A DNA stretch of 64,000 nt from Candidatus Zhuqueibacterota bacterium. Its GTDB lineage: Bacteria; Zhuqueibacterota; Zhuqueibacteria; Oceanimicrobiales; Oceanimicrobiaceae. A program made the position numbers and the translations under genes. The notes beneath the pieces were generated by a model. It was given only the letters and a program-made list of their open reading frames with translations, ran no database searches and was not told the origin of the DNA. This document shows positions 5,494 through 44,891 of the stretch, one piece after another (positions within the stretch are counted from its first letter, which is position 1; each line of letters begins with the position of its first letter). The DNA is taken from contig JAJDAD010000063.1 in the NCBI GenBank assembly GCA_029262055.1, positions 186,001 to 250,000 of the forward strand. Reading direction: 5' to 3'.

Positions 5494-7374
5494 CTAAAGC
5501 TCCCTCTCCAAAGTGACAATAGCCTCGCGAGCTCTATCAAAAAAACTGCGCATCTCGCCGTTGTCTGTTCCCCCGGGGGCAAACCGTTGAAAATCACAAT
5601 CTTGTAAACATTCAAGAAATTGCGTTACGACCTCTTGTTTCACTTTTCTTTCACTTAGAATTCTCTCAACCTCATCGGTCATGAGCCCGGCGGATGACAC
5701 GTTAAGCTTGTCGCCCACGTAGCCCATCAGCGCACTTGCAATTTCGCTGTAAAACTCTTTTGAACCACCTTTGGATAAGAGCTGGTTGGCCTTTTTCAAC
5801 CGCTTCATGGCCATTTGATTTGCCTTCCGGCTTCTGGCATAAGCGACATTGGAGCTCAATCGATCCTGATGGCGGCGATAGCCCAGCGCGCCTGCCAGAG
5901 CTGCCAGCGGCAGGAACAAAACAAGGTGAAACCACACGGTTTTATAGAGTACAGAGCCACGCAGCTTAAATTCCGGCAACCGGGTTTGAATAAAACGAAT
6001 GTCCTGTCCGATGAACCTGACATCCTCCTTCGAGCCCCCCACCCGTGTTGTGGCAAACTGCTCCTCACCACGGGCCACGGTTATGTCAATTGGGTTCGTG
6101 GCAATCTGTTTGTAGGTTCGCCGGGCCGGATCAAAATACGAAAACCTCACCGGTTTTATGGTCTGGTTCCCGGGAAAACGGGGAATCAAGATATATTCAA
6201 ATGTCCGGCTTCCTGAAATCTCTCCACCCTTCCGGCTGATAGTCTCGGTAATCTTCGGATCGTAAACTTCAAAATCTGCAGGAAAACTGACCACGGGCTT
6301 TGGCAGAATCTTGATATTCCCGTTGCCTGCAATAGTGACTTTGAACGATATCGCTTCATTGGTCTTGGCACTCGCTTTGTCAACGGTGGCTTCGATTGAA
6401 TAGGCGCCCACAGCTCCGGCAAAATCGCGTGGACGGCTTTCAGCAGGCAAAGGAAGGACGTCTATAGTAACCGGATTAGACCGCAGTTTCTTCCTGACCG
6501 TACGGCCAAAGTCAAAAAACGGGTCATTGAGGAAATTGTCGAATATATCGCGGCGCTGGCGACGCTGGCGCGGGACCTGCACTTCACATTCAATCTCCAT
6601 CGGGTCCAGCGTCTTCTTGCCGGGACCCTGCGGGAACAGAGCGACCTTTTTGATGTCCGCCACCTTAAACTGCCGACCGTTGACAACCCCCTCGTACAAG
6701 GGTGGCCGGCCAGGCAACTCGAAATTTTCCGTCCAGAACCCGGCCGTATTGGGCAGTTGTGAGACGCCGTAATTGCTCACATTGACGGCCGTGTAGATTT
6801 TGTAGGTGACGATTACCGGTTCATTCTGAAAAACGCGTTTCTTTTCGGCAAACGCCTTCAGAAACAAAACCTCATCGAGATTGTCAGCCGCGCCGGGCTT
6901 GCCCGGCTGGCGACGGCCCGATCTTCCCGGCTTTTGTGCGGCAGGACTCGCCGTGATTTCGAGCTTGACGGGAGTACTGGCATAGACTTTTCCGTTGTGA
7001 CGCAGTTCGACGGCGGGAATCGTATGTTTTCCGACGGTACCGGCGATGTAGTGGTGCGTATAGGTTTTGCTGACCGACATCTTGCCATTGACAAACTGCA
7101 TGCTGGTAGAAGTGCTGCTGCCAACATACGAAGCGAACCGGTCGAGACCGGGCACCGGCGGCTGCGGCGTACTATTGGCATCGGAGCCTGAAACCTCTAC
7201 CGTCAGCTCGAACTGCTGGTCCAAAGCAACGACCGGCCGGTTCAAATGGGCGCTGACCTGAATGTCCTGTGCCAGAACAGCAGACGGCAACAAGAGCACC
7301 AGCAGCGCCGGAAAACAGGACATCGCAGCCGAACCAGTTTTGAGTCCGCCGCCTTTGGGGTCGCGTTCAAGCAT
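5494..7374 (-). CDS. batD: BatD: large periplasmic protein with C-terminal membrane anchor
   Basis: The product (about 626 residues) has a signal peptide (ALLVLLLPSAVLA). Several Ig-like beta domains follow, typical of BatD (DQQFELTVEVSG...; VTYKIYTAVNV...; AISFKVTIAGNGNIK). It ends with a transmembrane helix near residue 490 and a cytosolic helical tail containing LKKANQLLSKG...CLQDCDFQRFAPG. The ATG at 7374 overlaps the batC stop in the pattern TGATG, so translation is coupled; TTG/GTG alternatives lie just upstream. It works with BatA/B/C/E in a MoxR-associated envelope complex whose biochemical role is still unclear. Its tail resembles those of the two shorter BatD-like proteins in this operon. 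Confidence 0.9.
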   Translation of the reverse strand: MLERDPKGGGLKTGSAAMSCFPALLVLLLPSAVLAQDIQVSAHLNRPVVALDQQFELTVEVSGSDANSTPQPPVPGLDRFASYVGSSTSTSMQFVNGKMSVSKTYTHHYIAGTVGKHTIPAVELRHNGKVYASTPVKLEITASPAAQKPGRSGRRQPGKPGAADNLDEVLFLKAFAEKKRVFQNEPVIVTYKIYTAVNVSNYGVSQLPNTAGFWTENFELPGRPPLYEGVVNGRQFKVADIKKVALFPQGPGKKTLDPMEIECEVQVPRQRRQRRDIFDNFLNDPFFDFGRTVRKKLRSNPVTIDVLPLPAESRPRDFAGAVGAYSIEATVDKASAKTNEAISFKVTIAGNGNIKILPKPVVSFPADFEVYDPKITETISRKGGEISGSRTFEYILIPRFPGNQTIKPVRFSYFDPARRTYKQIATNPIDITVARGEEQFATTRVGGSKEDVRFIGQDIRFIQTRLPEFKLRGSVLYKTVWFHLVLFLPLAALAGALGYRRHQDRLSSNVAYARSRKANQMAMKRLKKANQLLSKGGSKEFYSEIASALMGYVGDKLNVSSAGLMTDEVERILSERKVKQEVVTQFLECLQDCDFQRFAPGGTDNGEMRSFFDRAREAIVTLEREL

Positions 7375-8183
7375 CACCAATCTTTACCTCTGAACGCACC
7401 ACGGACTTTTTGCTTCTTCTTGTTCTTGAGTAACTCCTCTTCATCTCCCTGGAGGGCATCCAGGATACGCTCCGCATCCTCTTTTGAAATCTCTCTGGGT
7501 TCTTCACCTTGCTGCCCCTCTTGCTCCTCTTGCTTTTCTTCGTCACCGGGCCGCTCTTGATTCTCTCCCTGATCTTCCTGCTGTTGTTCTTGTTCGTCCT
7601 GCTGCTGGTCCTGCTCTTCCTGGTTTTGCTGGTCCTGCTGCTCCTGGTCCTGCTGCTGTTCCGGGTTCTGCTCCTGGTTCTGCTGATCCTGCTTCTGCTG
7701 CTGACTATCGTCCTGATTCTCCTGGTTGTCTTTCAGCTTGGCACGGACGTACTCAAGATTATATTTCGCATCTTCATCATCAGGATCGAGCTCCAGGGCT
7801 TTCTTGAAGTGCAGAACGCTCTCCGGCAATTTACCCATCTTGTAAAGCGTGTTCCCCATATTGTAGTAGCTCTTGGATTGCAGGGAGATATCATCGGACG
7901 AAAGTGACTTCTGGTAGGACTGCAATGCCTCTTCATAGTTATGCTTTTTGTAATGCACATCACCGATATTGAAGTGAACATCCTCCAAGTCAGGCTGTTC
8001 CAGGAGGGCGTCGCGATACTTGTTGTTTGCTTCGTCATACTTCTCTTCACTGAAGAGGCGGTTGCCTTCTTCCACCTGCTTGTGACCCTGGGAGAATCCC
8101 GGGGCTGCAAGAGTCATCAACACCAGCATCGGAATCAGAACCCGCAACCAAGAGGCGCTGCTGCTTTCCGCTCTACTGTTCAA
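7374..8183 (-). CDS. batC: BatC: TPR protein with long Gln/Glu-rich segment
   Basis: The 269-residue product has a signal peptide, three to four TPRs (LFSEEKYDEANNKYRDALL; VHFNIGDVHYKKHNYEEAL; YYNMGNTLYKMGKLPESV) and then about 85 residues made almost only of Gln, Glu, Asp and Asn (about residues 155-235). A short charged tail follows. The likely start is TTG 8183, which has GGAGAGG six bases upstream and overlaps the end of batB by 11 bases. The CAG-rich coding tract explains the long Leu-rich open frame on the other strand. In Bacteroides, TPR BatC acts with BatB; the Gln-rich tract is probably a flexible linker. Confidence 0.85.
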   Translation of the reverse strand: MNSRAESSSASWLRVLIPMLVLMTLAAPGFSQGHKQVEEGNRLFSEEKYDEANNKYRDALLEQPDLEDVHFNIGDVHYKKHNYEEALQSYQKSLSSDDISLQSKSYYNMGNTLYKMGKLPESVLHFKKALELDPDDEDAKYNLEYVRAKLKDNQENQDDSQQQKQDQQNQEQNPEQQQDQEQQDQQNQEEQDQQQDEQEQQQEDQGENQERPGDEEKQEEQEGQQGEEPREISKEDAERILDALQGDEEELLKNKKKQKVRGAFRGKDW

Positions 8184-33728: not shown

Positions 33729-34304
33729 CTACATGACATTTCGGGTATCATTGCGCATATAGAGTACGGCGTCAAACAAAATCGCAACGTCCGGAAAAAT
33801 TTCCGTGTCATAGGCAAGGCTCATATCGCCAAACGATACCAAAAACGGCAACGTCTCGAGACTGGCGAGATAGCGCCCGAATGAGTTGTATCGTCCCCGC
33901 AGCTTTATATGCACGGGTAGTTTTAACACGGCGGCACCAGGGCCGCCCTTTGTCTTAGCCGCCGCTAATGCGGCGTAATCAGGAATCATGTTCTGAAACT
34001 GCAGCCCATATTTCTTGCCTTCAGACTTCAGGCGCATAATGGCTGTACCCAGACCTTCTTTTGCAAGAATTTTCGACCGCGTGCCCTCCAGGTCCTGTTT
34101 AAGCTCCTCGATCTCCTTTTCCAGGCCTGCGACCTCCTGCGAGCTCGAACGAAAGCTCTTGATGAGCGAAATCACGTTCTGGGACTCGGTCTGCAATGTC
34201 TGCAACCGGGAACGCTTGGGTTGGTACAGCACAAAGAACCACACCAGCGCGATCACCAGCAAAACAGCCGAAGCCACGGCGAGAGTTCGAACGGAATCTT
34301 TCAT
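33729..34304 (-). CDS. pilO: PilO-like pilus assembly protein
   Basis: The 191-residue product has one N-terminal membrane helix, a coiled coil (about 35-75) and a ferredoxin-like domain (PVHIKLRGRYNSFGRYLASLETLPFL). It forms the inner-membrane alignment complex with PilN and PilP. It starts 1-2 bases after the pilMN stop. Confidence 0.85.
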   Translation of the reverse strand: MKDSVRTLAVASAVLLVIALVWFFVLYQPKRSRLQTLQTESQNVISLIKSFRSSSQEVAGLEKEIEELKQDLEGTRSKILAKEGLGTAIMRLKSEGKKYGLQFQNMIPDYAALAAAKTKGGPGAAVLKLPVHIKLRGRYNSFGRYLASLETLPFLVSFGDMSLAYDTEIFPDVAILFDAVLYMRNDTRNVM

Positions 34305-34305
34305 A

Positions 34306-37074
34306 TCACTTCAAATAGTTTTCGCATTCAATAGTGAATTGTAGCGCGCCATCCTCCCGGACACTTTGTTTCGCCAAAGCCACACCTTTAAAGTAGTCTG
34401 ATCCCTCCAGTTCAAGGAGGAATTTTGCCAGATTCAGGCCTTCAAGCGAGTTATCTTCAAACGCCACGCCTTCCATTATGAGGAATTCCTTGTCGGCCGT
34501 GGTCTCACCTTCTTTGTCGCTGACATTTCTTTTTTCAATGCGTAAAAAACTGAGGGTGAGTTTACTCGGGAAGTAGTTCCCGATAACCTTCAGGTGTTGC
34601 GTGGCCTGATGATTAACGGCCAGAGAGTTATTGTAGTTACTCTTCAGGTGTGTTAGATCCTGCAGAATCCGCTGTGAAGCCAAATAGCGCTGACGCACCG
34701 GCTCAGACTGCTCAAACTCCGAACTCACACGGACAAACTCCGCGCTGACCTTTTTGACTTCGCGACTTACATCCTGATAAAGAAAAGTCATCAAGAGCAG
34801 AAGGATTACGAACGCATATCGAAGAATGCGCTTGGTCAACACCGTCGTCTGGCTGGTCTTAAGGTGGCCCGGCATGAGGTTGAACTCATCACTCTGGTCG
34901 AGGGCCAGGCCGGCGGCTACCGCAAATCGCGGCCCGAGTTTTCTCAAGCTGTCGGCATCCGAGAATTTGCCTAACGAACACTCCTGTAACGGGTTCAGAA
35001 GCGCTACCGGCGTTGCAAGCTCCTTGCTAAGCCACTCACCCAGGTTGGGCATCAGCGCCCCACCGCCGGAGAGCATAGCTTGCTCAATCTCACTGACATG
35101 AAATTTTTCTTTGTAAAAATCAAAGGTCCGCTGGATGTCGCGCACAAGCCGCTCCAAGACCGGAACCATAAGAACAGACACTTCGCGCAGAGGGACACCA
35201 TCGGCAGTGACCGAATCATCCTGTGGCTGTGGGATTCCGTGTTTGCGCTTGACTCGCTCGGCACTTACGGAATCATGTTCAATTTCCCGGCCATCGATAA
35301 ATACCGGACTGGTCAGGGCCTCGGTAAAGTCCGAGCTGGCAGTCGATATTTCACGCGCAAACTGAAGCTCGCCATCATTGACGAAAACAATGTGGCTTGA
35401 GTCCGAGCCGATATCTACAATAGCATAACACTTGTCCGAATAATCACGCACGCAAAATCTGAACGTGTGCCACAGAGCCACGGGCACCGTCGATACTTTC
35501 ACCGGCGCGATACCGGCGTTATCCAGCACATCGAGATGGTCATTTACCACCTCCTGTTGCACCGCCACCACAAATACTGCTATTTTGTCGTCGCTCGTCG
35601 CGTTGCTCTGCCCGGTCCGGGCGAACTCGAGGGTAGTCGCCTCAAGCGGAAATGGCAGGTCCTTGCGGCACGCCCACGGCACTGCTTTCGCCAGGTCGCG
35701 GTCGGCCATCTTCGGGACGCGAATGTGGTTGAACCATACTTCCAGCCCCGAAACGCACGTAGAAAAAAGTGCTTTCTTGAACTTGCCGGCCTTGAACCAG
35801 TCGCCGAGATAAGCTGAGAGTTTCCCTTGCTTTTCCTCCTTACCGGCGTCAAAGGTGATGTCCGGGATGCTAGCACGGCCACAGTTTACCAACTTCAGCC
35901 CACGCCCCGACTTCTCGAATTGCACATACTTCACCGCTCTCGAACTGATATCAAGTCCCAGTGGTTGTGGATTCTCAAAAAGAGGCTTAAGCGAAAAGGA
36001 AAGAAAGTTTGAGCGCGCCCTTGCCTTTTTAGCCGGTCGCGCTTTTTCCTTTGGTTTGCCCTTGTCCTTTCTTCCTTCGGAAGCAGATCCCCGAAAAGGA
36101 GTGCCTTGATCCGCATCTGCATCCGATGGTTGGGATTGGCGGGCGATGGTCTCTTCCAGCTGCAAGGGTGGTGCTTCGCTCTTTACCGCAGCGCTGTCTT
36201 CCGCCTGCTCTTGTTCAGCCGGCAGTACTGAATCGGTTTCTTCAGTATCCGCCTCCGCTTCATCTACGACCTCCAAAAGCGAATCAAGAGCCTTGACGGC
36301 CTCTTTTTCCGAAGTTTCGGAGGATAGCACCAGTCGGTCTTCACTCGGGCCCTGCTCTGTTGCATCACTTAGGCCGATGCCATCCCGAAAAATGGCTTTG
36401 GCTTCTGTGGTTTCCGGTTCGTCTGCTGCATCGAGCGAAAACTCGGTTCCCAGCTCCACTCCCGGGCCAGTTTCGGGATCTATTGTATCTGCTTCGCTTA
36501 CATCTGTGGGGTCAAGTGTAAACTCGACCGTGTCGGGGATTTCATCTACTTCCAAAAGGCTCTGGCGCAGCTCAGCCAAAACCGCATCGATCTCCGACTC
36601 TACCCGGCCCGATGCTTCCTGGATGTTGAATTCCTCATCATGATCCGGGTCAGTTTCAGGGCCGACAGCCGCCGCATCGTCAGGGGCCGCTGCCCCTGGC
36701 TGCGCCTCATCCTCGAAATCCACTGAGTCGGAAATATCCAAAGGTAACTGCAGGAGGTCGGCACTCTCATCCGGGGCCGGAGTTCCATCTTCGGCGTCGA
36801 CATTTTCATCGCCGAGGGCGGGAAGCGCAGTGGCAGGGGTATCTTTAACAGAGGCAGGTGGGTCGCTTTGCCTTCCTTCCGGCAGCACCTCCTCAGGGAG
36901 AATGAGGTTGTCCTTACCAGCGGCCGACGGGGCGGTATCCGTGTCGCCCCCCAACACCCTGTCAATGAGATCGGAATGCTTCTGTGTGCCTCCCGGAGTA
37001 GATCTCTGCGATTGTCCCCGGCGAAACTTTTCCTTTTCCTCAATCAGAAAAAGTAGATCTAAATTCTCAGACAT
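34306..37074 (-). CDS. PilM-PilN fusion with long acidic N-terminal extension
   Basis: This 922-residue product joins three parts. Residues 1 to about 350 are disordered, acidic and Pro/Glu/Asp-rich. About 360-740 is a PilM actin-like domain (LGLDISSRAVKYVQFEKSG; YAIVDIGSDSSHIVFVNDG; MLSGGGALMPNLGEWL). About 745-922 is PilN: FNLMPG, one membrane helix (YAFVILLLLMTFLYQ), coiled coil and ferredoxin-like fold. In most bacteria PilM and PilN are separate proteins bound through the PilN INLLP-like peptide; here that peptide is the fusion joint. The start may be ATG 37074 or TTG 37098. Confidence 0.9.
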   Translation of the reverse strand: MSENLDLLFLIEEKEKFRRGQSQRSTPGGTQKHSDLIDRVLGGDTDTAPSAAGKDNLILPEEVLPEGRQSDPPASVKDTPATALPALGDENVDAEDGTPAPDESADLLQLPLDISDSVDFEDEAQPGAAAPDDAAAVGPETDPDHDEEFNIQEASGRVESEIDAVLAELRQSLLEVDEIPDTVEFTLDPTDVSEADTIDPETGPGVELGTEFSLDAADEPETTEAKAIFRDGIGLSDATEQGPSEDRLVLSSETSEKEAVKALDSLLEVVDEAEADTEETDSVLPAEQEQAEDSAAVKSEAPPLQLEETIARQSQPSDADADQGTPFRGSASEGRKDKGKPKEKARPAKKARARSNFLSFSLKPLFENPQPLGLDISSRAVKYVQFEKSGRGLKLVNCGRASIPDITFDAGKEEKQGKLSAYLGDWFKAGKFKKALFSTCVSGLEVWFNHIRVPKMADRDLAKAVPWACRKDLPFPLEATTLEFARTGQSNATSDDKIAVFVVAVQQEVVNDHLDVLDNAGIAPVKVSTVPVALWHTFRFCVRDYSDKCYAIVDIGSDSSHIVFVNDGELQFAREISTASSDFTEALTSPVFIDGREIEHDSVSAERVKRKHGIPQPQDDSVTADGVPLREVSVLMVPVLERLVRDIQRTFDFYKEKFHVSEIEQAMLSGGGALMPNLGEWLSKELATPVALLNPLQECSLGKFSDADSLRKLGPRFAVAAGLALDQSDEFNLMPGHLKTSQTTVLTKRILRYAFVILLLLMTFLYQDVSREVKKVSAEFVRVSSEFEQSEPVRQRYLASQRILQDLTHLKSNYNNSLAVNHQATQHLKVIGNYFPSKLTLSFLRIEKRNVSDKEGETTADKEFLIMEGVAFEDNSLEGLNLAKFLLELEGSDYFKGVALAKQSVREDGALQFTIECENYLK

Positions 37075-37154
37075 TCCGTGACAAGATAAAGTGGTCAAAA
37101 TCGACCGCCCGTTTTGAGCCGGTAAGCGAGCAGGATCGACAGGGGTTGTGAATA

Positions 37155-38206: not shown

Positions 38207-38608
38207 ATGCCAGAGCGTAATATAGAGAGCCTCAAAGACACCCAGCAGCAATTCCCCAACGGCATAGATCAAATCAAAGAAATTCTCCTCGGAGAAGAGA
38301 TAAAGAGCTGGGACGAACGACTGTCCGAGCTCGCAACCCGCCTGCACGATCTAACGAAACTAACCGAAAAAAGACTAAGCCAACTTGAGGCGAAGATAAC
38401 AGCTACGCAAGAGCAAGCCACCCTGGAAAAACAGCAAACCACCACAGAGCTGGACAAAACCCGCAGCACCCTTCAAACCCTTCTGGATGATTTCAAGAAT
38501 GAGTTGGAGTCCCAAATAGCGAATTTGGCCGAGAGTAAGGTCGACCGGGATTCCATCGGCGAGGTATTCATTCAGTGGGGGCAGAAGGTCAAAGCCAAAG
38601 ACTCCTAA
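38207..38608 (+). CDS. Coiled-coil protein, first gene of the GTPase/OmpA cassette
   Basis: The 133-residue soluble product starts at ATG 38207 behind AGGGAGG. Almost all of it is predicted coiled coil rich in Glu, Lys, Gln and Leu. Residues 23-46 (IKEILLGEE...LSELATRL) match the N-terminus of the next protein (LREIILCEE...LRAELRRL). The shared segment may be a dimerisation or docking helix. No enzymatic motif. Function unknown. Confidence 0.75.
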   Translation: MPERNIESLKDTQQQFPNGIDQIKEILLGEEIKSWDERLSELATRLHDLTKLTEKRLSQLEAKITATQEQATLEKQQTTTELDKTRSTLQTLLDDFKNELESQIANLAESKVDRDSIGEVFIQWGQKVKAKDS

Positions 38609-38635
38609 AACAACCTAGCTTACGCTGATTTGACC

Positions 38636-40228
38636 ATGGCGCAAAATCAATCAGAAGCACTCGGTCGGCTGCGTGAAATCATCCTCTGCGAGGAGGAGAC
38701 GCGTGTCAAGGAGTTGCGGGCGGAGCTAAGACGCTTGCAGGGCCGCCTTGACGACACCGGCGAACTTTTGCAGAAACTGGAACCGGTGATAGCGGACACC
38801 CTGGCCATCAAGATCAGAAACTCGCAAAACGAGATGGCCGAGGTGCTCGGGCCGGTGATGGGTCCCGCTATCAAATATCAGATCCAGAACGCAAAAGAGG
38901 ACATGGTCGACGCACTCTATCCGGTCATCGGCAGCACCATCCGGAAATCTGTCGCCGAAGCCATGAAAGAGCTGGTGCGGGCGCTCAACCAGAGAATTGA
39001 CGATGCGCTCAGCAAGAACAGATTTCTAAGAAGATTTCAATCCACAGTGAGCGGCGTCTCTGAAACAGATTTGCTGCTAAAGCAATCCCTGCCGTTTCAA
39101 ATTCACCAACTGCTGCTCATCCACAAAGAAACCGGCATCCTGCTGGTACAAGTGTCAGGCATCAATGCATCTTCCGCAAACAAGGATTTGGTGAGCGGCA
39201 TGCTGACAGCGATCAGGGACTTTGCGCAAACCGCACTGACGCCGGGCGAGGGACGTGAGCTAACCCAAATCAAGTACGAGGACCTCGACATCTACCTGGA
39301 CGACAGCAAGTACTCGACACTTGCCATCGTCGCAGCCGGCCAGCCGCCGCCCCAATTCACCGAAAGCACAATCCGCTGCCAACAGAAAATTCACAACCAG
39401 TTCTACAAATTGCTGCGCTCATTTTCCGGAGATACCAGCCAACTCTCATCTTGCGTCCCCATTCTTGAAAGCCTATACCGACAATTCTCCCTGCCTGAAA
39501 GCAACGCCGGAACCAGTGCAAGCAAAAGCGGCAAGGCAACCGGCATTATTGCTCTGCTATTGCTTCTTCTGTTGTTTGCCGTACCGATGGTCCTTTGGCT
39601 GAAGCTTGGGGAGACGCCGCCCGAACCGGCAAAAATCAACCACAGCGCGCTGGTTTTACAAATCAGGGACCATCTGAATTCGACACTGGAGTTTGATAGC
39701 TCGAATTTGAAATTCATCTGGGATGATGATATGCTCACGCTCGCGGGTGAAGGATTTGATGGCCAGCAGAGGTTAGAGCTGGCAAAAAGCGTGGCACAGG
39801 TCGCATCGGTTTCCGTGATAATTAATGAAATAGCTACAGAGCTTCAGCCACGAGCCATGCCCGAGAACGTACGGCAACAAATCGAAAATACCGTGATCTA
39901 TTTCCCACACAGCGTGACGCAACTAACGGATGTGGCTTCGTCGAAACTGCAGGCACTCGTCCCGCTGCTGGCCGCATACCCAAAGCAGACGATCACAATC
40001 CGGGGCCATTCGGACCTCCCCGGAGACGCCCAGGCAAACCTTCTTGCTTCCAGAAAGAGAGCTGAACAGGTCAGAACTACCCTGGCTCAAGCAGGGGTCG
40101 AATTGGCTCGAATGACGATTGTCGCATCCGGAGCCGACGAGCCGGCCGCTAGTAACGATACAGAAGAAGGTCGTGGCAAGAACCGCCGGGTTAACTTTAA
40201 ATTGCCTAGGACGACCTCATTTGAATAA
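38636..40228 (+). CDS. Inner-membrane protein with cytosolic sensor-like region, BON-like and OmpA domains
   Basis: The 530-residue product has a cytosolic N-terminus: EIILCEE coiled coil (10-50), two repeats of (L/Y)xPV(M/I)GxxI (70-115), and a mixed alpha/beta region 155-260 (LLLIHKETGILLVQVSG...DLVSGMLTAIRDFAQTA) that resembles roadblock/longin-like folds by pattern. A transmembrane helix (303-325), a BON-like domain (335-400) and a C-terminal OmpA domain (410-525) follow. The OmpA domain has the conserved NLLASRKRAEQV and NRRV residues for peptidoglycan binding. The topology is like MotB, inside-out across the inner membrane. The start is ATG 38636; there is no clear ribosome site. Confidence 0.85.
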   Translation: MAQNQSEALGRLREIILCEEETRVKELRAELRRLQGRLDDTGELLQKLEPVIADTLAIKIRNSQNEMAEVLGPVMGPAIKYQIQNAKEDMVDALYPVIGSTIRKSVAEAMKELVRALNQRIDDALSKNRFLRRFQSTVSGVSETDLLLKQSLPFQIHQLLLIHKETGILLVQVSGINASSANKDLVSGMLTAIRDFAQTALTPGEGRELTQIKYEDLDIYLDDSKYSTLAIVAAGQPPPQFTESTIRCQQKIHNQFYKLLRSFSGDTSQLSSCVPILESLYRQFSLPESNAGTSASKSGKATGIIALLLLLLLFAVPMVLWLKLGETPPEPAKINHSALVLQIRDHLNSTLEFDSSNLKFIWDDDMLTLAGEGFDGQQRLELAKSVAQVASVSVIINEIATELQPRAMPENVRQQIENTVIYFPHSVTQLTDVASSKLQALVPLLAAYPKQTITIRGHSDLPGDAQANLLASRKRAEQVRTTLAQAGVELARMTIVASGADEPAASNDTEEGRGKNRRVNFKLPRTTSFE

Positions 40229-40748
40229 ACCTGCCATTACTCTTAGCAAAAAAATCTGCATGTTAGGCACGTTCAGTGTCGGTAAAACCAGCCTGGTCCG
40301 GCGCTTCGTGCACGGGCTGTTTGACGACCGCTACCTCTCCACCATCGGCGTTCAGATTTATGAGAAACAGTTGCCGTCAATCCCGGGGCGAAGAGCGGAA
40401 AACCTGAAGCTCATCTGTTGGGATCTCGCAAACATTGAGAAGCTAACCCCTGCTATAAAGAATTACTTCCGGGGCGCATCAGCAGCCATAGTCGTCTTCG
40501 ATCTAACCCGGCCCGCAACCTTTGACGTAAAAGACATCCACCTCGATGCATTCAAGCAAGTGAACCCGTTGGCAGGTCTGGTGTTTGCGGGCAACAAGAT
40601 CGATCTCCTCCCTGATGTGAGCTCACCGCCGTCCGAACTGGCAGACTTGGCGGGTTCCCACTCTGCACCGCTTTTATTTACCAGCGCCAAGTCCGGCGCC
40701 GGAGTGGCCGAGATGTTTGCCGCGCTCGGCCAACTGCTGCTGAGGTAA
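40221..40748 (+). CDS. Rab-like bacterial small GTPase with degenerate G3 motif
   Basis: From TTG 40221 the product is 175 residues, a normal small-GTPase length. The TTG overlaps the upstream stop by 8 bases and has AGGACG before it; a start at 40119 would add 34 residues in the upstream frame. Motifs: G1 GTFSVGKT (16-23), G2 Thr41 in LSTIG, G3 WDLANIE (67-73), G4 NKID (125-128), G5 TSAK (154-157). In Ras/Rab proteins G3 is DTAGQE; here Gly is Asn and the catalytic Gln is Ile. Slow or activator-dependent hydrolysis is therefore likely. Bacterial relatives (KICMLGxxxVGKTSLVRRFV) are common and largely uncharacterised. Confidence 0.88.
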   Translation: MNKPAITLSKKICMLGTFSVGKTSLVRRFVHGLFDDRYLSTIGVQIYEKQLPSIPGRRAENLKLICWDLANIEKLTPAIKNYFRGASAAIVVFDLTRPATFDVKDIHLDAFKQVNPLAGLVFAGNKIDLLPDVSSPPSELADLAGSHSAPLLFTSAKSGAGVAEMFAALGQLLLR

Positions 40749-40755
40749 GACACTC

Positions 40756-42156
40756 ATGCCTGGCCGCTACCTCAAACAGATCCTGAAGGCGCACAGGACT
40801 GCGTACGCCGTCTTCGACGAATCGCTGCAATCACTTGATTATGACTTCCGCAACAGCGTTTTTTTCAGCGAAAAAGAACTAGGCCGCAACTTTTCCCTGT
40901 GGGAGTGCTTTCCCCTGTTGGCAGGCTATGAGGACGTGGTGCGAGAGATTCTGCAGGGTAAACTCAGACAGTATCTTCTGGAGAAGATCAACCATTGCGA
41001 CGATGCCGGCAAGCTAACCTACCACACAATCCTTCTGACAGCCGTGCAGGACAAGGACTATGGTGCAACCAGACTGTTTTGCCTCGTCAGCGACGTTACC
41101 CGGGAAACTGCTCTGGAACAAAGTCTGAGACAGAAGGATTACGAAGTCCGTGTCTTGCGGGCGGATTTGCTGAGCAACGGCCAATTCCTGCACGACAGCC
41201 TTTTGGGTGAATCGCAACCAGTGGCAAAAGTGCGGGAGTTTGTAAAAAAGGTATCGCAGTACCAAGCCACCGTTTTGCTCCAGGGAGAAAGTGGCACCGG
41301 CAAAAGCCTCGTGGCCAAACTCATCCACCGCGCCAGCCCTCTTTCTTCCGCACCTTTTGTGGAAATAAACTGTGCCGCCATCCCGGATACACTGATGGAA
41401 TCAGAATTGTTCGGCTATGAAAAGGGCGCCTTTACCAACGCACTTAGCAGCAAGAAGGGGCTAATAGAAGAAGCGGATAAGGGATCGCTCTTTCTCGATG
41501 AAATTGGAGAGTTACCCCTGTCACTGCAGGCAAAACTACTGACCTTTCTTGAAACACAACGTTTCCGGCGACTTGGTAGCACCATCGAAAGAAAAGCCAA
41601 TGTCCGCCTCCTGGTCGCGAGCAACAAGGAACTGGCCGCGGCGGTTGAACAAAAAGAATTCCGACAGGATCTGTTCTTTCGGCTAAATGTCGTGACCGCG
41701 GTCCTACCGCCGCTCAGGGAACTGGGAGAAGACATTCTCCTGCTCGCGGGACACTTCGTAGAGCTGTTAGCGATTGACCTAAAAAAGCAGGTCACCGGCT
41801 TGACACCGTCTCTCGCACAGAAGCTCCTTTCCTACGACTGGCCTGGAAATGTCCGGGAACTGCGCAATGCACTGGAACGCGCTGTCATCTTCTGTGAAGG
41901 GAAACTGCTCGACATCGACGACCTTTCCCTGTCGTCCATAAGGCCCGTGGCAGAATCCGGGCTTGGCAACGTTCAAATTCCGGAGGACGGACTTGCCTTT
42001 GACGATGTGGAGAGGGCTTTCCTGGAGGAGGCCCTCAACAAAGCAGGCGGCAATCAAACCCGTGCCGCCCGGTATTTAGATCTCAGTCTCGACACCTTCC
42101 GCTACCGGCTCAAGAAATTCAAAGTGCGGCCCGGCCATCCGCCTAACAAGAAATAG
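40756..42156 (+). CDS. Sigma54-dependent transcriptional activator (PAS-AAA+-Fis) with GAFTNA loop
   Basis: The 466-residue product has an N-terminal PAS-like domain (about 10-120), a linker helix, and an AAA+ sigma54 activator domain (150-375): Walker A GESGTGKS, Walker B GSLFLDEIGELP, and RQDLFFRLNVV. A C-terminal Fis-type helix-turn-helix (KAGGNQTRAARYLDLSLDTFRYRLKKF) follows. The sigma54-contacting loop, normally GAFTGA, reads GAFTNA (224-229). There is no receiver domain, so the signal probably enters through the PAS domain or the GTPase partner. The ATG lies 7 bases after the GTPase stop, with GAGGT in that stop region. Confidence 0.92.
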   Translation: MPGRYLKQILKAHRTAYAVFDESLQSLDYDFRNSVFFSEKELGRNFSLWECFPLLAGYEDVVREILQGKLRQYLLEKINHCDDAGKLTYHTILLTAVQDKDYGATRLFCLVSDVTRETALEQSLRQKDYEVRVLRADLLSNGQFLHDSLLGESQPVAKVREFVKKVSQYQATVLLQGESGTGKSLVAKLIHRASPLSSAPFVEINCAAIPDTLMESELFGYEKGAFTNALSSKKGLIEEADKGSLFLDEIGELPLSLQAKLLTFLETQRFRRLGSTIERKANVRLLVASNKELAAAVEQKEFRQDLFFRLNVVTAVLPPLRELGEDILLLAGHFVELLAIDLKKQVTGLTPSLAQKLLSYDWPGNVRELRNALERAVIFCEGKLLDIDDLSLSSIRPVAESGLGNVQIPEDGLAFDDVERAFLEEALNKAGGNQTRAARYLDLSLDTFRYRLKKFKVRPGHPPNKK

Positions 42157-42309: not shown

Positions 42310-42325
42310 TGGCACGGCCTTTGAA
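42310..42325 (+). promoter_or_regulatory. Sigma54-like promoter of the small zinc-ribbon gene
   Basis: TGGCACGGCCTTTGAA matches the -24/-12 consensus at the TGGCACG block and at TTG with correct spacing, but the -12 GC is GA. The ATG at 42370 is about 34 bases past the expected start. Confidence 0.4.
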
Positions 42326-42369
42326 TGGATGTGAGCTGCAACCTGAACCAGTGCCTTGAGGGGCCCGAA

Positions 42370-42546
42370 ATGTCGATTGACTGCAAGTGTCCACGATGTT
42401 CTCACAATAACCAGTTTAACCTGGACGACTTGTTGGGCAAGTATGCAGCATGTAAGAGGTGCGACTTCATGTTCATAATCGGAGACCTTGATCTGCAATC
42501 AGGTGTAAAAAGCGACGATCAGCGCTCCCGTGGGGAGCAAGCATAA
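42370..42546 (+). CDS. Small zinc-ribbon protein
   Basis: The 58-residue product starts at ATG 42370 behind GAGGGG. It has two CxxC pairs (CPRC at about 8-11 and CKRC at about 28-31) with the spacing of a zinc ribbon, and an aliphatic middle (FNLDDLLGKYAAC). It follows the sigma54 activator gene by 213 bases. Function unknown; it could be a small regulator or protein-binding module. Confidence 0.65.
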   Translation: MSIDCKCPRCSHNNQFNLDDLLGKYAACKRCDFMFIIGDLDLQSGVKSDDQRSRGEQA

Positions 42547-42826
42547 AGCGTTTCGCCTGGGCGCACGATGAGATGGTCAAGCATCGTTAAACTGGCGTGC
42601 CAGACTCATTGCCTCACGCTTCTGGCACAACAACTACTTGACTTGAACAATGACTGTCAAGGAACCATGGTAAGGACACCTGTGCCTTCGGGCTGGGCCA
42701 TGACGGCCCACTTGCACTATGTTGCGCTCACGGAGGAGCGCGACAGTTTGTCACCTTTGGAGAAAGCATGAATCGGAGGAAAGGACAGGTACGGGCTTGA
42801 CCCTACGCAACTCTCCCCCACCACAA

Positions 42827-42859
42827 GTAGCCGTCGGCTTAGTGCCAGCCGGCGGCTAC
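42827..42859 (+). terminator. Possible terminator hairpin after the zinc-ribbon gene
   Basis: Arms 42827-42839 and 42847-42859 pair at 12 of 13 positions around a 7-base loop. The following sequence is T-rich (CCTTATTCTATTCCTTTC) but has no clean T run. Confidence 0.4.
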
Positions 42860-42996
42860 GACCTTATTCTATTCCTTTCAGTAACGAAAGCCGAAGAGAA
42901 CTTCCGACACATTAGGGACGAACAGTAACGCCTGCTTCCATGTCCGGGCTCAAACGAGAAACAAGTAAGGAACAGAGAGTCACCCAACTGATATAC

Positions 42997-43025
42997 TTGA
43001 CTAGACCAGACTCAATTTCTATATT
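42997..43025 (+). promoter_or_regulatory. Sigma70-type promoter of the mscS gene
   Basis: TTGACT (42997-43002), 17-base spacer, TATATT (43020-43025), 42 bases before the GTG start. Confidence 0.65.
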
Positions 43026-43067
43026 CAGGTCGCAAACTACAACCTACTCGAAAAGGAGGGGCTAACG

Positions 43068-43871
43068 GTGGATATTCTGGCAACAGTAAAAGGGATTGCA
43101 ATCACGTACGGGCCGCAATTGTTGTTGGCCGTGGTGACACTGCTGGTTGGTTTTTGGATTATTGGAATCGTCACCAAGGTGCTGCAAAAGGGGCTTGAAC
43201 GCAGCAGAGTCGACATCTCGCTACAACGGTTCCTCGGCAGCCTGGTTAGCGTCTTGTTGAAAGTGATGCTGATGATCAGTGTCGCTTCCATGATCGGCAT
43301 AGAGACCACATCGTTTGTTGCGGTTATCGGTGCGGCCGGCCTGGCGGTCGGGCTCGCCCTGCAGGGAAGTCTGGCAAATTTTGCCGGTGGTGTCTTGATT
43401 CTGCTTTTCAAGCCGTACAAAGTTGGTGATTTCATAGATGCGCAAGGCGTCACTGGCAGCGTCAAAGAAATCCAGGTGTTTAACACAGTCATGAAAACAG
43501 GCGACAACAAGACGATTATCATTCCCAACGGAGCTATTTCGAATGGCATTATCACCAATTTCTCAACCGAGGCGACGCGACGGGTTGACATGGTATTCGG
43601 CATCGGTTATACCGATGATATTCAACACGCAAAAAAGGTGTTGAACCAAATAATCTCCGCTGATGACAGAATCCTGAAAGAACCCGAACACCTGGTGGTA
43701 GTATCGGAACTGGCGGACAGCTCGGTGAATTTCACCGTGCGGGTTTGGGTCAATGCATCGGACTACTGGGGCGTCTACTTCGGCATGCACGAGAAGGTCA
43801 AAGAAACCTTCGATCAGGAAAAAATCTCCATTCCGTTCCCGCAGAGGGATGTGTACGTTCACAACAGTTGA
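43068..43871 (+). CDS. mscS: MscS-family small-conductance mechanosensitive channel
   Basis: The 267-residue product has three membrane helices, the third being the Gly/Ala-rich pore helix (AAGLAVGLALQGSLANFAGGVLIL), then the beta domain (KPYKVGDFIDAQGVTGSVKEI...VIIPNG-type IIIPNGAISNGII) and the C-terminal alpha/beta cage. It is the length of the E. coli MscS. It opens on hypo-osmotic shock. It begins at GTG 43068, with AGGAGGGG eight bases upstream. Confidence 0.93.
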   Translation: MDILATVKGIAITYGPQLLLAVVTLLVGFWIIGIVTKVLQKGLERSRVDISLQRFLGSLVSVLLKVMLMISVASMIGIETTSFVAVIGAAGLAVGLALQGSLANFAGGVLILLFKPYKVGDFIDAQGVTGSVKEIQVFNTVMKTGDNKTIIIPNGAISNGIITNFSTEATRRVDMVFGIGYTDDIQHAKKVLNQIISADDRILKEPEHLVVVSELADSSVNFTVRVWVNASDYWGVYFGMHEKVKETFDQEKISIPFPQRDVYVHNS

Positions 43872-44036
43872 ATTCCTTAGTCTCGGCCGGACTCAGCCAG
43901 AATCTGGGCCGGCTGGGTACTGATGGGATACCTTACCAGTTCGGCACTCAAGTCCGGAACGGCACAATGTCGTCAGGTGAGAAAGAGCGGCGGCCGTCCA
44001 CCCACATCATTTTCAAACACTATTTTTGGAGGCATC

Positions 44037-44891
44037 ATGAAAGGACTCTTAACAGCTATATTGACGCTTGCCACGCTGTGCGTAGCCTCGGCCCGGCAAG
44101 CGCCAGACGATTCAACAAACTATGGCTGGAAAAACGATCTTACCGGTAACGTCACATTGACACAGGCCAGTTTTGTCAATTGGCAGCAGGGCGGGGAAAA
44201 CACGCTCGCATGGCAAGCCAAGGTCAATGGCAATTTCGTCCGCGATGAAGAAAAATATAACTGGGCAAACCAGATAAAAGCCACACTTGGTTTTGCCAAG
44301 GTCGGCGACCAGGAAGCGCGGAAATCAGCCGACGAAATCTTTGTCGAGTCAGTTTACACCAGAAAGCGCAGCAAATTGCTCAACCCGTTTGTGGCAGTCA
44401 CCGCCAAGACGCAATTTGTCAGCGGATTTGAGTACAATGATGATAACAAAACCAAGATATCCAGATTCTTGGATCCGGGTTATTTCACCCAGAGTCTTGG
44501 CCTGGGTTACAAACCGAACGACAGGTTACAAACCAGGTTCGGAGTCCTGGTCAAAGAAACCATCACCAGCGATTTCCCTGTGCCATTTGCCGATGACGCA
44601 AGCACTGTCGAAATCGAAAAAACGAAAGTCGAGCCCGGACTCTCTTCGGTGACCGATTACAAACACGCCCTGCGCGAAGATATTATCTACACTTCCAAGC
44701 TTGATATATTCAGTGATTTGGAGGCGTTCAACCGCATTGATATTTTGTGGGAAAATAACATAACCCTCAATATCACCAAGATCATCAATGTCAGTTTTGA
44801 ATTCAACTTGTTCTACGATCGGGATCTGTCTAGCAAGCGGCAAATCAAGCAGGTTTTGGGACTGGGTTTAAGCTATGCTTTTATTGAGTAG
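44037..44891 (+). CDS. DUF3078-like secreted/outer-membrane protein
   Basis: From ATG 44037 (GGAGG five bases before) the product is 284 residues with a signal peptide. The mature part has the pattern W...GNVTLTQASFVNWQQGGENTLAW, typical of DUF3078 proteins of Bacteroidetes. Many amphipathic beta strands and an aromatic C-terminus (LSYAFIE) suggest an outer-membrane barrel. The role is unknown. An in-frame start at 43923 would precede the signal peptide and is rejected. Confidence 0.8.
   Translation: MKGLLTAILTLATLCVASARQAPDDSTNYGWKNDLTGNVTLTQASFVNWQQGGENTLAWQAKVNGNFVRDEEKYNWANQIKATLGFAKVGDQEARKSADEIFVESVYTRKRSKLLNPFVAVTAKTQFVSGFEYNDDNKTKISRFLDPGYFTQSLGLGYKPNDRLQTRFGVLVKETITSDFPVPFADDASTVEIEKTKVEPGLSSVTDYKHALREDIIYTSKLDIFSDLEAFNRIDILWENNITLNITKIINVSFEFNLFYDRDLSSKRQIKQVLGLGLSYAFIE

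Follow-up and report, generated by a model that had tools for sequence, protein, structure and literature searches.

The stretch of DNA analysed here (64,000 nucleotides, hereafter the window) comes from a 5.7-Mb genome of Candidatus Zhuqueibacterota, where it lies on contig C74, and carries a module of four genes on one strand, encoding in order a 133-aa protein, a 532-aa OmpA protein, a small GTPase and a 466-aa output protein. The product of the first gene (38207..38608, +) is a coiled coil by appearance, which would make it the coiled-coil component of a Group 1 Rup system; Pfam gave no family for it, and phmmer found relatives at many loci of its own phylum. The second gene (38630..40228, +) encodes, from the open reading frame together with Pfam, a structure model and fold searches, a helical N-terminus, a longin-like cytosolic domain, a transmembrane (TM) helix and an OmpA-type domain. 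The N-termini of these two proteins, IDQIKEILLGEE in the coiled-coil protein and LGRLREIILCEE in the OmpA protein, are alike, with a local score of 45 that was reached by none of 300 shuffles, and perhaps represent a shared docking segment. The GTPase gene (40221..40748, +; 175 aa, no internal stop) starts with TTG at 40221 and overlaps the upstream OmpA reading frame by 8 nt, its own frame being open from 40119, and the output gene (40756..42156, +) begins 8 nt past the last base of the GTPase. On the opposite strand upstream of the module lie a PilM protein of 930 aa whose N-terminus is extended by a long acidic segment (34306-37098, -) and then a PilO protein (33729-34304, -).

The GTPase was assigned to the Rab-like, Group 1 Rup type from its translation, its Pfam matches (Ras, 2.9e-24; Roc, 2.1e-22), its solved relatives, topped by Rab-22A, Rab-31 and Rab-5C, and its family profile. 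Its G1 (GTFSVGKTS), G2 (YLSTIGV), G4 (NKID) and G5 (TSAK) motifs are all present and normal, while the G3 motif DLANIE (40422..40439, +), part of WDLANIE, keeps its Asp and carries Asn at residue 71 in place of Ras Gly60 and Ile at residue 72 in place of Ras Gln61. Translation and motif alignment thus bear out the sequence-only reading, which had described an altered G3 between intact G1, G4 and G5 motifs. That reading had also considered a one-off sequence error, an explanation that we rejected because the identical motif occurs in two separate genomes, at our loci L008 and L077, and because the absence of Gln61 is common in the family (79 of 113 GTPases). The nearest relative, with 60% identity across the matched stretch, is the GTPase of L008, a KSB1 record. 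Asn and His are able to replace Gly in backbone geometry, and for this reason we do not take Asn60 as a loss of the gamma-phosphate sensing that had been ascribed to the Gly.

Genome searches with a GTPase profile (A1) built from 15 relatives placed the GTPase in at least 31 of 82 genomes of its own phylum and at least 33 of 63 genomes of one class, in at least 12, 8 and 8 genomes, out of 247 each, of three other phyla, and in at least 3 of 194, 13 of 395 and 20 of 396 genomes of further samples; the samples overlap and in many genomes only part of the candidates was scored, hence all of these counts are lower bounds. Across 113 GTPases, position 61 is Gln in 34, Glu in 33, Ile in 19, Lys in 5, Ala in 4, Leu, Thr and Arg in 3 each, Phe, Asp and Ser in 2 each, and Val, Met and His in 1 each. 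Absence of Gln61 is therefore common in this family and Ile is one of many substitutes. Gly60 is replaced in 25 of the 32 own-phylum GTPases (18 His, 6 Asn, 1 Ser) and in none of the 81 from outside the phylum, some rows being near-duplicates. For the comparison of G3 motifs, 101 of 104 GTPases were kept, and 12 of the 113 had no assignable output (L013, L015b, L058, L064, L084b, L087, L092, L100, L127, L136, L143, L150). Two further loci were observed in the course of the survey. One is L019 in genome G089, a Euryarchaeota record, where the Rup profile matched 19 times within a single 2.5-Mb archaeal genome, a large Rab-like expansion; the other is L084, with Rup GTPases in tandem (6393-6974 and 7103-7615), the second with the G3 motif WDLPGEGE, and two candidate outputs downstream.

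Pfam and the structure model divide the output protein into a PAS-like domain, a helix, a sigma54-type AAA+ domain (Sigma54_activat, 2.7e-65) and a Fis-type HTH (HTH_8, 3.7e-13). The model, built with 6 sequences, has a mean pLDDT of 79.4 and predicts a PAS fold for residues 1-114 (40756..41097, +), with VIA Z scores up to 9.1, little above the level that the tool calls common; a profile search of solved chains with this N-terminal region found nothing significant. Right after the PAS-type domain, the model places a helix of residues 115-149 (41098..41202, +), which holds Gln126 (41131..41133, +). An HMM of residues 1-160 from 26 sigma54-type outputs, seven duplicate loci being dropped at this stage, matched a Nostoc output in its N-terminus (2.9e-24) and, weakly (1e-4), a Mesorhizobium cyclase output in the same part, from which we conclude that the N-terminal region is common to different effectors. 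With the near-duplicates L022, L053, L079 and L098 removed, the Gln126 column is the most conserved of the output region: among 65 outputs paired with a GTPase without Gln61, 94% have Gln there, followed by columns at 85% and 75%, and in the own phylum it is Gln in 27 of 27 such outputs. In sigma54-type outputs this column sits in a Gln-rich helix, so part of the identity could be compositional.

By short motif, 101 outputs were classified as sigma54-type (33), GGDEF (34), histidine kinase (13), cyclase (2) and HD-GYP (1), leaving 18 unclassified. All 30 complete own-phylum outputs are sigma54-type, and two more outputs of the phylum are interrupted. RpoN is encoded in the genome (PF04552, 4.8e-62). 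The loop of the window's output reads GAFTNA instead of GAFTGA, and among the 33 sigma54-type outputs it is GAFTNA in 24, GAFTHA in 6, GAFTDA in 2 and GAFTGA in 1. Because the loop deviates from GAFTGA and varies within the clade, activation through sigma54 is likely for this output, not certain. An output of the sigma54 type would mean that the small GTPase acts on a transcription activator without an intermediate. The search for sigma54 promoters gave no clear site: allowing one mismatch, the pattern occurred 5 times against 2.69 expected, and the sole site near the module, at 42310, is without the -12 GC; a weighted promoter scan with a consensus was too noisy for any site call. Downstream of the module (42325-44891) lie a 73-aa reading frame at 42325, for which Pfam gave no family, a gene for an MscS-type channel identified by Pfam (43068..43871, +) and a gene for a DUF3078 protein (43923..44891, +; DUF3078, 6.3e-22). 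The latter two are possible members of the regulon or bystanders. Relatives of all or some of the three genes lie downstream in a few own-phylum loci, those of the MscS-type gene in stretches at L008, L009/L053 and L057 and those of the DUF3078 gene near L057, L062, L010 and L009/L053.

Gln126 is a candidate for a catalytic Gln supplied in trans, and the comparison of GTPases with their outputs points in the same direction. Among 101 GTPase-output pairs, which still contain the near-duplicates L022, L053, L079 and L098, 65 have no Gln61 and a Gln in the output, and 30 have Gln61 and no output Gln, so that exactly one Gln is found in 95 of the 101, chiefly through one clade. Six pairs break the rule, with both Gln in two (L059, L148) and neither in four (L015, L094, L104, L105); in three of the latter outputs a Gln lies one residue off. 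The Gln61 rows with a changed output form one GTPase clade; in place of the Gln, the outputs of this clade carry Arg or, in one case, Ser. Most of the evidence for the exchange comes from this clade, and its 30 rows are therefore not 30 independent events; a Fisher value computed over the pairs treats the rows as independent and does not serve as a probability. Two further pairs, L144 and L154, were found in two different phylum searches and have a Lys61 GTPase together with an output reading VIQKARE or ILQKARE, nearly the same context as the ILRKAR of the Gln61 clade and within an N-terminus of the same kind. In a tree of 45 chosen rows made without the G3 columns (an earlier GTPase tree, which showed the Gln61 clade, had left out five rows), these two group together (99/82), outside the Gln61 rows. 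Close homologues that differ in Gln or Lys at position 61 and in Gln or Arg in the output turn the trans-Gln proposal into a point-mutation test. The whole pattern is as expected if one Gln were required, on either partner, and the conserved output Gln with its exchange for Gln61 supports dependence on an activator in trans as the likely consequence of the altered G3, an idea already raised from the sequence as one possibility. Co-variation by itself would not separate catalysis from contact: the output Gln may be a binding residue, its helix docking on switch II and the residue packing against Ras position 61 so that the two co-vary through contact, hydrolysis then being slow or served by another GTPase-activating protein (GAP), either the longin protein or an unlinked one. 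The pairs with both Gln or with neither would agree with such loose coupling, but the residue that is swapped is precisely Gln while Glu, Ile, Lys, Ala, Thr and others are tolerated at position 61, and the Gln is the top-conserved column of the output, for which reasons we consider a purely binding role unlikely, though a serious alternative.

The other potential partner in the module is the OmpA protein, whose OmpA-type domain (residues 424-519; 39899..40186, +; Pfam OmpA, 4.7e-15) presumably binds peptidoglycan and whose cytosolic part contains a longin-like domain at residues about 155-287 (39092..39490, +). The model of the first 333 residues, made with 9 sequences, has a mean pLDDT of 64.9 and a pTM of 0.42, and the region 151-290 shows pLDDT blocks of about 70-90 with a weak stretch at about 181-210. 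The predicted topology of this region is beta-beta-alpha-beta-beta-beta-alpha-alpha, the longin order, and VIA put the longin of Sec22b on top (Z 14.3, 127 residues, 2.9 A), with VAMP7 at 13.1, a Lokiarchaeal longin at 12.9, Ykt6 and Fuzzy-Inturned at 12.4 each, Mon1-Ccz1 at 11.1 and TRAPP subunits at about 10-12. Foldseek gave a best E of 2e-4, with adaptor sigma chains, Mon1-Ccz1, TRAPP and MglB among its matches, and MglB was not among the best 50 VIA entries. Pfam at E values up to 1 gave no family for the longin-like region, and a profile search of solved chains with the N-terminal region of the protein gave no convincing or significant match. Of 111 loci, 90 contain a reading frame matched by an HMM of the longin-like region, and some of the other 21 lie on short contigs. 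We thus predict a longin fold for the cytosolic part of the OmpA protein, which assigns a putative family to a hitherto unknown partner domain of the Rup systems. In eukaryotes and archaea, GTPases are known to bind to platforms made of longin and Roadblock domains, and MglB is the bacterial example (PMC3521125, PMC10933270). By analogy, a longin domain beside a GTPase suggests a role in exchange or docking. The cytosolic part of the OmpA protein had been named before as a potential partner in hydrolysis; as a partner it is plausible, but the predicted longin points to exchange or docking and the output Gln is the better catalytic candidate.

The same domain could instead be the GAP, as the Roadblock protein MglB is for MglA, with the output Gln just reading the GTP state. 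The kinship of the longin and Roadblock folds, both of which bind GTPases, and the GAP function of MglB (PMC3521125, PMC10933270) speak for this, yet the nearest folds among the matches listed are longins that belong to SNAREs, adaptors and exchange factors, which makes this assignment rather improbable. A nearly locked, slow switch in which Asn60 and Ile61 abolish efficient hydrolysis, signalling then depending on nucleotide exchange or on production and turnover of the protein, as in the Rnd proteins, would suit the deviation of both G3 residues and the loss of Gly60 in 25 of 32 own-phylum GTPases, but we regard it as the least probable of these alternatives, since Asn or His can stand in for Gly and an output Gln kept in 27 of 27 own-phylum outputs paired with GTPases without Gln61 would be unexpected if hydrolysis were dispensable.

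The reading that we prefer, with a probability of roughly 0.58, is that the GTPase is loaded by a longin protein anchored to the wall, that it engages the PAS helix of the activator, and that this helix donates the catalytic Gln. The coiled-coil protein and the inner-membrane protein, with its longin, TM and periplasmic OmpA parts, would together form an envelope-attached platform for the Rab-like GTPase. The state of the envelope, presumably sensed through peptidoglycan, would be passed by the OmpA domain and the TM helix to the longin domain, which would load the GTPase as a guanine nucleotide exchange factor (GEF). The GTP-bound GTPase may then bind the activator at its post-PAS helix and so change how the activator assembles. 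With Ile at position 61 and Asn at position 60, the GTPase would need a Gln from its partner, and Gln126 may enter the active site, complete it and so end the signal. An effector that donates Gln126 would double as a GAP and end its own activation, and with a sigma54-type transcription activator as the output the switch would set transcription directly. More broadly, the module might exemplify a bacterial Rab-longin circuit with a longin exchanger tied to peptidoglycan, an effector that is also the GAP, and transcription coupled to hydrolysis in one contact, one clade carrying the Gln on the GTPase and Arg at the donor position. We offer this wider picture tentatively and think it doubtful in its entirety.

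Several known systems share parts of this arrangement. MglA-MglB, which the sequence-only reading had invoked as a parallel, likewise joins a bacterial small GTPase to a partner of the Roadblock/longin superfold, but no MglB gene adjoins the window's GTPase, whose G3 keeps the Asp (WD) and is without PGQ. We therefore abandoned MglA-MglB as the model, there being no Roadblock reading frame in the module and the Robl_LC7 match lying on contig C23 beside another GTPase. That GTPase (L142, same genome) is MglA-like with the G3 motif TVPGQ and sits between Roadblock-like reading frames of 127 and 175 aa. A catalytic amide side chain is given in trans by the TBC-domain GAPs of Rabs and by RapGAP of Rap, which is the step proposed here, although the proposed donor is the PAS helix of an effector and of unrelated fold. 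The longin platforms Mon1-Ccz1, TRAPP and Fuzzy-Inturned resemble the module in that a predicted longin is encoded beside a Rab-like GTPase, whereas here it is bacterial, part of a single polypeptide with a TM helix and an OmpA domain, and its exchange role is putative. Finally, sigma54 enhancer-binding proteins with PAS domains have the same succession of PAS, sigma54-type AAA+ and Fis HTH, while the present output differs by a Gln motif common to other kinds of Rup output and by its GAFTNA loop.

The closest counterpart is the Group 1 Rup system, which Wuichet and Sogaard-Andersen described computationally in 2014. As given in that paper, the system consists of a Rab-like GTPase without the G3 Gln, a coiled-coil component, a protein in which an unknown domain is followed by a TM segment and OmpA, and an output, typically GGDEF/EAL or histidine kinase, with an invariant N-terminal Gln that was proposed as the catalytic residue in trans (PMC4316618); the same text states that no Rup member had been experimentally characterised at that time (PMC4316618) and names both Mesorhizobium and Nostoc, the genera of our loci L020 and L021 (PMC4316618). 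In the open-access main texts searched, we found no other paper on Rup GTPases, none that connects a bacterial GTPase with longin and OmpA, and no sigma54 activator with Rup. Measured against the published description, the window's module has the same type of single-domain GTPase uncoupled from MglB, a coiled-coil gene, a TM-OmpA gene and an output with a conserved Gln, and differs by its sigma54-type output and the loss of Gly60. GGDEF/EAL or kinase outputs are only typical in the source, and a sigma54-type output therefore marks a variant and does not decide membership. By its gene content and motifs we assign the module to the Group 1 Rup systems, as a variant in which the output is sigma54-type and Gly60 is substituted, and we infer that the Gln126 column corresponds to the invariant Gln of the 2014 paper. 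The trans-Gln idea is thus that of its authors; relative to the open text, our analysis adds a location for the Gln, the helix that follows the PAS domain, together with the Gln61 clade, the predicted longin domain and an output that is a transcription activator. It thereby bears on a proposal for GTP hydrolysis by Group 1 Rup GTPases that has stood since 2014 (PMC4316618). Given that the same authors derive the eukaryotic Rab, Ras, Rho and Ran GTPases from Group 1 Rup (PMC4316618, open text), the pairing of Rab with longin could be bacterial in origin, and the predicted longin domain, by connecting the fold of Rab exchange factors with a Rab-like GTPase from a bacterium, would bear on the origin of the Rab machinery.
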